64,000 bases of DNA, taken from assembly GCA_024642525.1 (NCBI GenBank), contig JAHEAX010000001.1:186001-250000 (forward strand), given 5' to 3'. This document shows, piece by piece, positions 13,414 to 42,376 of this stretch (the stretch's first letter is position 1; the number at the start of each line of letters is the position of its first letter). Position numbers and translations under genes: made by a program. Source of the stretch: Erythrobacteraceae bacterium (lineage in GTDB: Bacteria; Pseudomonadota; Alphaproteobacteria; Sphingomonadales; Sphingomonadaceae). The notes beneath the pieces are model-generated. The model saw only the letters and a program-made list of their open reading frames with translations. It was not told where the DNA came from and did no database searches.

Positions 13414-13489
<76 letters not shown>

Positions 13490-40434: not shown

Positions 40435-41189
40435 GATTTCCAGCCCGTAAGGGTCAGGATTTCAAATGTTTCAGAAACGCGGCCATTTTCGTCGGCATCG
40501 AGTAGAAATTCCTGCTTTGCGATAACAAGCGCCTTGCGGGTGAGTGCCGGAGGGCGCGAGACAAGCGCATTACTCAGCCCTTGCGCCCGCATATCGCGCA
40601 CCAGCGTTTCCAGACTGCTGTAGCGGACATCCAGAGATCGGGAATCGACAACCTGCCTCGCAAAACCGCTACGCTGGAGCAGCTCTGCACCAGCCCTGCG
40701 GTCCACCATAGGATGCATTCGCGCAGCAGGCCTTTGCCCATCCGCTGCCAGCATGGCCCTGCGTAGCAGAGGCGCGCTGCCAGCCCCAATCATGCTGGCG
40801 ATGAGAACACCGCCCGGTGCTAGTGCATTCCTGAGATGGATGAGCGCACCCGGCAGATCATTGACCGTATCCAGCGTGCCTACGCTGGCAATAAAATCGA
40901 ACGCCCCAAGTTGCAAAGGCGCTTCTTCATCGAGAGTAAGCGGATCGGCTGTAACAATCTCGCCCGCCGTAGAAGGAAGCGCTGCCGCGATCCGGCCGTG
41001 CCTGTCACCGATTACCAGGCTGCGAGCAGGTTCAAGCCGCATGAAAGACACCCGCTCTATTACGTCATCCGTCATATCGGCAAGGATGTAACTGGAATCA
41101 GGGTCCATTTTTGAAAGGCGCGCAGATCTCTGCCGGATTGCGCGGCGTCTTGCAGCATCGAAAATGCGGGGAGGGCTCTGATTTGCCAT
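40431..41189 (-). CDS. SAM-dependent methyltransferase-fold protein, NDUFAF5/BioC-like
   Basis: A 252-residue protein. The N-terminus RIFDAARRRAIRQRSARL is typical of the alphaproteobacterial NDUFAF5-like family. A SAM-fold follows with SLVIGDRHGRIAAALP (motif I, degenerate: GDxxG rather than GxGxG), DFIASVGTLDTVNDLPGALIHLRNALAPGGVLIASMIG, and ending VSETFEILTLTGWK. NDUFAF5 hydroxylates an arginine in complex I subunit NDUFS7; whether this homologue does so is inference. The gene is divergent from comF, a common alphaproteobacterial arrangement. Confidence 0.85.
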   Translation of the reverse strand: MANQSPPRIFDAARRRAIRQRSARLSKMDPDSSYILADMTDDVIERVSFMRLEPARSLVIGDRHGRIAAALPSTAGEIVTADPLTLDEEAPLQLGAFDFIASVGTLDTVNDLPGALIHLRNALAPGGVLIASMIGAGSAPLLRRAMLAADGQRPAARMHPMVDRRAGAELLQRSGFARQVVDSRSLDVRYSSLETLVRDMRAQGLSNALVSRPPALTRKALVIAKQEFLLDADENGRVSETFEILTLTGWKS

Positions 41190-41244
41190 GAACGCCCTCT
41201 GCCGCGCTTGCACCGCCTGCGCAAGCACGGCAACGTGGCAATCG

Positions 41245-42042
41245 ATGGCATCGGCACGCACCTTTTCACAATCCATGGCGCCGCTGGTCAACCTCATTTA
41301 TCCGCCTCGTTGCCCCCTGTGTGGCGGCTCTATCGCGCAGCAAAGCGGATTATGCGCGGGTTGCTGGGGCGATCTTCAGATCCCGACAGAACCGGCGTGC
41401 GCCACATGCCAGCGCCCATTTCTGAGCGAATCAGTCGAAGACGGCGCCATTTGCGCTCCTTGCATGGCGCAGCCTCCAAGGCATGGCGGCATTGCGGCAG
41501 GCACTATCTATAACGAAGCCTCTCGCCAGTTGGTCCTGAGCTTCAAACACGGCGGTCGTATTGCGATGGCACCAATGCTGGCGCGATTGATTGCGGGCAA
41601 GCTGCACTATGCAGATGAAAGCTGGACCTTGGTACCTGTGCCTTTGCACCGCTGGCGGCTGTGGGGGCGCGGCTATAATCAGGCGGCGTTGCTGGCAACA
41701 GAGCTTGCAAAAGTGACAGGCGCGAGGCTGGAAGTGCAGGGGCTGAGGCGTGACAAAAAGACACCGCCGCTGGCGGGACTGGGCCGGAATGCGCGGGCCA
41801 GGGCGCTTGCCGGCGCAATTTCCGTTTCTCCGCAGATGGCACCGCGAATAGCGGGCAAGAAGATAATCCTGGTCGATGATGTGCTGACCAGCGGTGCCAC
41901 CAGTGACAGCTGCGTCAGGGCATTGCAGGCCGCTGGCGCATCCGAGGTAAACATCGCCTGTTTTGCGCGTGTGCTGGATGACGTTCGCGTTGCAGAGGAG
42001 TTCCCAAATTGGAGGCTGGAAAACGAAACGCCCGAGACCTGA
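41245..42042 (+). CDS. comF: ComF family phosphoribosyltransferase-like protein
   Basis: A ComF protein of about 265 residues. A zinc-ribbon-like N-terminus (PPRCPLCGGSI, CAGCWGDL, CATCQRPF, CAPCM) is followed by a type-I phosphoribosyltransferase domain: LVPVPLHRWRLWGRGYNQAALLA, then the PRPP-binding KKIILVDDVLTSGATSDSCV. ComF is linked to DNA uptake and single-strand DNA handling in competent bacteria; elsewhere the role is less clear. The start is uncertain. ATGs exist at 41188, 41245 and 41275. The first overlaps the divergent gene's start codon, so I prefer 41245. A hairpin at its stop belongs to a minus-strand terminator. Confidence 0.92.
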   Translation: MASARTFSQSMAPLVNLIYPPRCPLCGGSIAQQSGLCAGCWGDLQIPTEPACATCQRPFLSESVEDGAICAPCMAQPPRHGGIAAGTIYNEASRQLVLSFKHGGRIAMAPMLARLIAGKLHYADESWTLVPVPLHRWRLWGRGYNQAALLATELAKVTGARLEVQGLRRDKKTPPLAGLGRNARARALAGAISVSPQMAPRIAGKKIILVDDVLTSGATSDSCVRALQAAGASEVNIACFARVLDDVRVAEEFPNWRLENETPET

Positions 42043-42052
42043 GGTCCCGGGC
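42019..42052 (-). terminator. Minus-strand rho-independent terminator overlapping the comF stop codon
   Basis: On the minus strand a 10-bp stem (42052-42043 with 42039-42030, one G-U pair) and a 3-nt loop run into GTTTCGTTTTC. Read on the plus strand the same stem has an A-C mismatch and no T-tract. It therefore terminates something transcribed on the minus strand from the gene-free region, not comF. Confidence 0.7.
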
Positions 42053-42255
42053 GCCACGTGACGAATAATGTCGGACCCGCCTTGCGGCTTGGCAACCATC
42101 CCCCCAGAAGGTTGCCGGGATCCAATCCCTCATCGTTTGGAGGCGCCATCACCGTCAGGCGGGCTGCATCTCCATATTCCCCTGAACCTGGCACTCTGTT
42201 GGTACCGTCATTCGGTGGGTGGCCCTTGCGAGCCACGTGCGATACATTCCACTAG
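42019..42255 (-). ncRNA. Candidate structured non-coding RNA, unassigned
   Basis: The 334-bp stretch between comF and hisI holds no convincing gene but much structure. A 7-bp stem GGCAACC/GGTTGCC with a 12-nt loop lies at 42091-42116. A GGGAT/ATCCC hairpin lies at 42117-42129. Distal segments pair: 42063-42073 with 42240-42249, and 42075-42081 with 42214-42220. This gives a long closed structure of about 190-230 nt. The T-rich terminator sits on the minus strand, so that orientation is preferred. Size and long-stem layout recall 6S RNA, but the neighbours expected for 6S (zapA, ygfA) are absent, and I cannot assign a family. Confidence 0.5.
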
Positions 42256-42376
42256 CTGATGCGACAGCATAGCGCCTTGTGCATTCAGGGCTTATTTTGA
42301 AGTCCAGCTGTTGTCATATTGCAACAATATTTCCTTTGCCGACCAATCGGCAATTTTATCCTGCGAAAGTCTGCCA

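Follow-up and report, generated by a model that had tools for sequence, protein, structure and literature searches.

A predicted structured minus-strand RNA in the comF-hisI gap, conserved in sphingomonads and possibly related to Zymomonas Zms6

The gap between comF and hisI in the 64,000-nucleotide stretch of DNA that we analyzed (the window) is confirmed, on the basis of sequence comparison, to encode a structured minus-strand RNA with its own upstream element and its own intrinsic terminator. By the same comparison this RNA is conserved across many genera of the host family, the named loci belonging mostly to Erythrobacter, Qipengyuania and their kin. We favor, with somewhat better than even confidence, the reading that it is an intergenic regulatory small RNA (sRNA) of ∼245 nt that runs from its own promoter region to its own terminator and acts in trans by base pairing, and, less certainly, that it is the counterpart of Zymomonas mobilis Zms6. 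The window occupies positions 186001-250000 of contig C10 in its genome; the features of the locus are listed here in window positions:

41188..42042 (+): comF (Pfam DZR_2 and Pribosyltran), the opposite-strand neighbor, with its stop codon within the terminator loop
42377..42760 (+): hisI (Pfam PRA-CH), the divergent neighbor; start codon provisional
42043-42376: the comF-hisI gap; both flanking genes lie on the plus strand (Pfam)
42309..42326 (-): upstream box, TGTTGCAATATGACAACA here and TGTTGCANGATAACCACA in the family consensus; probably the site of a regulator or a part of the promoter
42293..42299 (-): second upstream block CAAAATA, consensus CAAAATC, 27 bases past the box start
42269..42272 (-): third upstream block CTAT, consensus CTTT, 54 bases past the box start; possible -10 region
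42020..42266 (-): small RNA as predicted, ending in the T tract (42020) and with its 5′ end placed at roughly 42258-42266
42247..42251 (-), 5′ side, with 42059-42065, two bases bulged: P1, the closing stem and the least certain one
42219..42236 (-): P2 hairpin (42236-42230 with 42219-42225), 7 bp, loop GCAA
42190..42206 (-): P3 hairpin (42206-42202 with 42190-42194), from alignments and covariation scan
42179..42188 (-): GGUUCAGGGG, conserved and single-stranded in the model
42143..42167 (-): P4 hairpin (42167-42162 with 42143-42147, one base bulging), from alignments and covariation scan
42125..42132 (-): UGAGGGAU, conserved and single-stranded in the model
42073..42123 (-): P7, a long-range stem (42123-42118 with 42073-42078) around P8 and P9
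42092..42115 (-): P8 hairpin (42115-42110 with 42092-42097), with conserved GGGGG in its loop
42079..42088 (-): P9, small hairpin GCC-GCAA-GGC, from alignments and covariation scan
42057..42065 (-): near-invariant UUCGUCACG, beside the terminator
42020..42053 (-): intrinsic terminator, an 11-bp stem (42053-42043 with 42029-42039) followed by a T tract (42028-42020)

Read 5′ to 3′ on the minus strand, the locus presents the upstream box (42326-42309), two further short conserved blocks and the stems, and closes with an intrinsic terminator oriented for the RNA strand, as for an independent intergenic sRNA. Covariance models R1 and R2 match the window at 42021-42252 with 233.9 and 209.6 bits, respectively (each was trained on a set that includes the window's sequence). 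An earlier note on this DNA had proposed an unassigned structured RNA of 200-230 nt on the minus strand: the assignment and the strand are borne out by the lack of a matching Rfam family, conservation, covariation, G-U bias, a terminator on one strand and a conserved upstream element, while the length becomes somewhat greater, about 245 nt, when the 5′ end is placed from the fixed spacing to the upstream box. The T-rich tail TTTCGTTTT is indeed found on the minus strand only. The terminal hairpin ahead of it is also present and overlaps the comF stop codon as described, with a stem of 11 bp rather than 10; its three-base loop is the exact complement of that stop codon (42040-42042).

The strand was evaluated both from the single sequence and from its relatives. 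Single-sequence folding gave z = -2.71 for the minus strand (1 of 200 shuffles as good) and z = -1.39 for the plus strand (17 of 200). Across 63 sequences read on the minus strand, G-U exceeds A-C by 142 to 56 cells outside the terminator and by 57 to 0 within it; A-C cells on the minus strand are G-U on the other strand, so that this excess favors the minus strand. The folding of one sequence lends modest support to a structured RNA, and the comparison with relatives lends strong support.

To derive the consensus fold, RNAalifold was run on a structure-blind MAFFT alignment (A1) of 26 of the 31 loci (L018, L024, L026, L029 and L032 were left out); it returned 50 pairs, of which 26 show one or more double changes. 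For the structure of R1, ten of these pairs were removed (three joining the 5′ end to the tail, two between single strands that lie far apart, a weak helix of three pairs and two isolated outer pairs) and five P1 pairs were added, leaving 45. On A1 this edited structure pairs 94.3% of the cells, versus 34.2-44.8% when partners are slid by 1-3 columns, and shows double changes in 25 pairs, versus 13.7 in shuffles; compensatory changes outnumber those in every one of 500 shuffles. In 63 model-aligned sequences (A3), an alignment that leans to the model, 94.0% of the cells are paired and 35 pairs show double changes. The 20 strongest covarying column pairs all fall within the model (100 sequences, 96 without near-identical ones, in an alignment fitted to the model), the two strongest lying in P8. 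Taken together, the covariation supports a predicted fold of six stems plus the terminator. The closing stem P1 is weak: 84.0% of its cells are paired in A1, with double changes in no pair, and 84.7% in A3, with double changes in two of five pairs.

The individual stems bear on what had been read from the single sequence. The 7-bp hairpin noticed earlier is P2, which covaries, with 559 of 655 cells paired in alignment A5 (100 sequences). The GGGAT/ATCCC hairpin (42129-42125 with 42121-42117) is likewise present in the sequence but does not survive as a conserved fold: it competes with P7, and we prefer P7 because the hairpin has lower pairing (321 of 444 cells, against 510 of 543) and fewer double changes (8 against 86). 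In P4, locus L031 of A1 exchanges GC for AU and CG for UA. Near the 3′ end, TCGTCACG is identical in all 26 sequences of A1, and likewise in A6; in the near-invariant UUCGUCACG the first U varies (A in L004 and L021). A covariation scan for extra tertiary pairs yielded no convincing pseudoknot.

To follow the RNA through its relatives, we searched genomes by DNA match, by pattern and by model. At genus level five of six genomes have a DNA match, and at family level 46 of 199 do, each count including the window's genome; comF and hisI both flank the RNA in all 31 of the first loci (the window's own included; the 6S locus L002 not counted). Both conservation and covariation, which the earlier note had proposed to seek in related genomes, are therefore found. 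An exact 18-base pattern from the 3′ part of the RNA is present in at least 118 stretches in named genomes; among those listed, motif check and reading assign 112 to this RNA and six to chance (L034, L046, L071, L091, L101 and L111). R1 scores 32 of the 112 at 111-208 bits, some of their genomes being the same as training loci, and the best of the six chance stretches at 10.1 bits.

Within the order, matches at E≤0.001 were obtained in 128 of 296 genomes with R1 and in 170 with R2. Because the weak R2 matches include bare terminators, we restricted the count to scores of at least 45 bits, which leaves 123 of the 296 genomes. The terminator-less model R3 matched 83 of the 296, once each (82 of them with at least 29.8 bits, the lowest score being 23.1), and none of 12 control loci with only a terminator or a chance pattern. 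Class-wide, R2 matched 31 of 385 genomes at E≤0.001: four matches at 99.9-209.6 bits all belong to the same family, and the other 27 reach at most 40.4 bits over about 40-100 nt and are read as terminators, six having been checked as controls. Thus R2 found no match above 40.4 bits beyond the family in the 385 class genomes, and two other families of the order gave weak matches only, in five genomes. As a separate observation, in a group of relatives that have the RNA beside comF (comF-type) the terminator reaches ∼40 bases into the comF end at a nearly constant offset; the 3′ ends of RNA and comF seem to have come to overlap closely on more than one occasion.

The region upstream of the RNA is conserved in its own right. 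Among 127 distinct loci that passed a crude motif filter, 82 match the strict box pattern, and in these box-anchored loci three blocks recur at fixed spacing: TGTTGCANGATAACCACA, then CAAAATC, then CTTT. Variant boxes are readable in eight of the other 45 loci, and the window's own genome also carries a variant of the consensus. The consensus box, which was derived from such RNA loci, occurs in 37 of 149 family genomes, in one place each, versus none for the reversed control. Nineteen of these places are in genomes where the models had already placed the RNA; upon rechecking with R2, all of the other 18 carry it as well, 14 of them new (67.9-122.1 bits) and four being training loci (L257, L258, L260 and L261, which equal L022, L007, L016 and L020). 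The distance from box to model start is 56-59 bases at all 37 places, and 57 at 31 of them.

The box has the form of an imperfect inverted repeat, as for a dimeric regulator, and we infer from the sequence that a promoter lies here, with a regulator site dedicated to it. A search upstream of the RNA in the window turned up no sigma-70 consensus promoter. The box is retained, and at a fixed distance, whether the divergent neighbor is hisI, lolC or proS. When the window's own genome was scanned for a box regulon, only the RNA's own site appeared at zero mismatches, and two other sites appeared at two mismatches. Between this region and hisI, just ahead of the gene, a 7-bp hairpin followed by TTTTATCC (42336-42353, plus strand) is terminator-like, and possibly represents leader control of hisI.

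A second arrangement emerged from 40 loci examined closely, mostly weak R1 matches: 26 lie between comF and hisI, one is next to comF only, and 13 have neither gene. Near all 13 is a gene that we take to be lolC (named by eye; Pfam FtsX and MacB_PCD). Together with two loci from genomes of Zymomonas-like look, all 15 adjoin lolC, with proS in between in six and pyrG or hsp20 on the far side in ten, and each of the 15 copies has a divergent gene upstream. The lolC-type copies have the same upstream box and terminator and, in most cases, GUUC[AG]GGG, a run of GGGGG and CGUCAC. The fold may differ between the two forms around CGUCA: at lolC-type loci such as L209 and L217, a nearby UGACGA is able to pair, across GCAA, with the conserved CGUCA, an arrangement that differs from the comF-type fold.

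R3, which was trained on comF-type loci only, scores the lolC-type copies at 16 bits or less on the right strand, finds nothing at the right place in five of the 13, and does not match the two Zymomonas-like loci. Because these scores are low or nil, kinship rests on box, terminator and short motifs, and we treat the two forms as probably, not certainly, one family. The same scores favor the rival reading that comF-type and lolC-type RNAs are unrelated and merely share a promoter element and a common kind of terminator, in which case Zms6 would be uninformative on the window's RNA. We find this doubtful, if deserving of real weight: both types have the TGT[TG]GC...CACA box beside differing divergent genes (hisI, lolC or proS), both mostly keep the GUUC[AG]GGG, GGGGG and CGUCAC motifs ahead of the terminator, and the 123 matches of at least 45 bits fall in 123 different genomes, some of which have further weak matches. 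On the reading that the two forms are one family, one may suppose tentatively that box, RNA and terminator form a cassette that moved between comF/hisI and lolC-proS/pyrG, none of the 123 strong-match genomes having two, and that it would serve as a G-rich hub for C-rich mRNAs and sRNAs, with the regulator's consensus box once per genome where found.

The Zms RNAs of Zymomonas are said to have been first reported by Cho et al. in 2014. The two genomes of Zymomonas-like look, G029 and G113, are 2.1 Mb in size, and their loci have 46.6 and 46.7% G+C. In both, the copy of the RNA follows lolC and proS and precedes pyrG, and it lies after hfq on the same strand, by about 115 kb in G029 and 113 kb in G113. 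In G029, pyrG is followed by secG (Pfam) and by a frame that we recognized by eye as, presumably, triosephosphate isomerase (tpi). A second hairpin with flanking A and T runs lies within ∼50 bases of the Zymomonas-like copy ahead of pyrG (L224 and L225), and looks like a two-way terminator shared with pyrG.

These landmarks allow a comparison with strain ZM4, for which published sources give hfq as ZMO0347 (PMC7064620), tpi as ZMO0465 (PMC6989614) and Zms6 as a 304-nt RNA at 454669-454972 (PMC6970203). The interval from hfq to tpi in G029 is 117 kb for 118 tags, or about 0.99 kb per tag, which predicts the RNA near 459 kb in ZM4; the placement uses an estimated scale of about 1 kb per locus tag, not sequence. 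Zms6 is ∼5 kb from this predicted position, and the next RNA listed, Zms3 (512975), is more than 50 kb away. The Zymomonas-like copy is thus probably the published ethanol-response sRNA Zms6, judged by position rather than by sequence, and the step from there to the window's RNA as its counterpart is one that we make with less certainty than base pairing. Strand relative to hfq, neighborhood by the locus-tag scale, and size (an sRNA of a few hundred nucleotides) all agree, in contrast to the listed length of 304 nt and the failure of R3 to match the Zymomonas-like copy, in a comparison by position alone. Counted back from the terminator, 304 nt would start ∼65 nt before the box, which conflicts with the box as promoter DNA.

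According to PMC7064620, Zms6 is raised by 6% ethanol, its loss lowers growth in ethanol, and it binds several mRNAs and the sRNA Zms16 in gel shifts, without Hfq binding. The accessible text of PMC6970203 and PMC7064620 holds no mention of Zms6 conservation outside Zymomonas, and the corresponding portions of PMC4004385, PMC5770649, PMC6190654, PMC7451989 and PMC12817903 hold little or nothing by way of gene tags. Literature searches, partly from titles alone, yielded no description of this RNA in sphingomonads.

Comparison with Rfam, which the earlier note had suggested, gave no family for the gap at gathering score, and at E≤10 a single 10-bit match, to the fluoride riboswitch (10.1 bits, E 4.8), which we reject as a chance match. 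Twenty of the 40 distant loci gave one tRNA only, and at gathering score Rfam recognizes nothing in the window but an ordinary tRNA gene at 13417-13489 on the minus strand. We therefore describe a predicted new RNA family without an Rfam 15 match, of which one member, Zms6, is possibly already in print.

The mechanism that we propose runs as follows. Transcription of the minus strand would begin in a promoter region that belongs to the RNA, marked by the three upstream blocks with their fixed spacing, and would stop at the RNA's intrinsic terminator. The product would fold into the stems listed above, exposing three G-rich stretches; GGUUCAGGGG, UGAGGGAU and the GGGGG loop of P8 would then be the contact sites for C-rich mRNAs or other sRNAs. 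The G-rich stretches are conserved while the surrounding stems change by compensation, a pattern that suits contact with other RNAs, and from it we infer that base pairing in trans through these stretches may be the mode of action. The window's own genome has Hfq, so help from Hfq is possible; if the RNA is like Zms6, it would need none. The Hfq model itself gives two matches inside one reading frame in the own genome (C32:374564-374989), in G029 and in G113.

A structured RNA may instead bind a protein (polymerase, the ribosome or a sequestered regulator), as 6S or CsrB does, rather than other RNAs. Several stems in about 200 nt, together with short invariant motifs, are what such an RNA might show, and the near-invariant UUCGUCACG beside the terminator has a weak pairing partner only. 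We nevertheless regard protein binding as unlikely: compensating stems around G-rich single strands suit base pairing equally, and two precedents fare poorly here. The first is 6S RNA, to which a short stretch, TCGCAAGGGCCA, had been loosely compared; this stretch proves to be part of the variable P2 hairpin, and the gap has no RF00013 match at gathering score or at E≤10. A 6S candidate of the genome lies elsewhere (C10:96442-96609, locus L002; RF00013, 38.5 bits), next to zapA and a 5-formyltetrahydrofolate cyclo-ligase gene, the usual neighbors of 6S. Its score is below the cut-off of 46.4, so annotation at gathering score would miss it. The window's RNA is not 6S: it resembles 6S in length class (about 200 nt), intergenic position, structure and the one look-alike stretch, but its consensus fold consists of several hairpins and a nested long-range stem, whereas 6S forms one long hairpin with a large central bubble.

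The second precedent is the CsrB/RsmZ type, RNAs that sequester CsrA and that likewise display several G-rich motifs outside stems. CsrA (PF02599) was found in none of three genomes searched, the window's own included, while three of 14 control genomes were positive, E. coli among them. Unlike the hosts of those RNAs, then, the window's genome has no CsrA gene that our search could find, which disfavors CsrA sequestration, and we reject the CsrB-type candidate.

Control in cis of comF or hisI, through antisense action on comF or a shared 3′ end, seems to us very improbable. The terminator loop does overlap the comF stop codon in the window, and a rough script, which overcounts where the comF alignment ran past the stop, finds an overlap with the comF end in up to 32 of 57 comF-type loci. 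However, the terminator ends past the comF stop in 25 of the 57, so that overlap is common, not general; neither comF nor hisI lies near any of the 13 lolC-type loci; and the terminator's T tract is on one strand only. A small protein gene or chance structure can be dismissed: although the window has several reading frames, 63-222 codons long, that overlap the gap, a check of full-length frames in 63 sequences finds none open throughout in 31 of them for the RNA strand and in 33 for the other, and the compensatory changes beat all 500 shuffles.

In summary, the reading that we prefer is a trans-acting regulatory sRNA, and it would add a structured RNA family that spans many sphingomonad genera, bacteria with wide use in biodegradation and ethanol work. 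Since nothing in Rfam 15 matches, annotation that relies on Rfam would miss this RNA. If the link to Zms6 is true, an RNA described from one species gains a family, a conserved fold, contact sites and a control element, and comparison could then be used to test both its target rules and its regulator.
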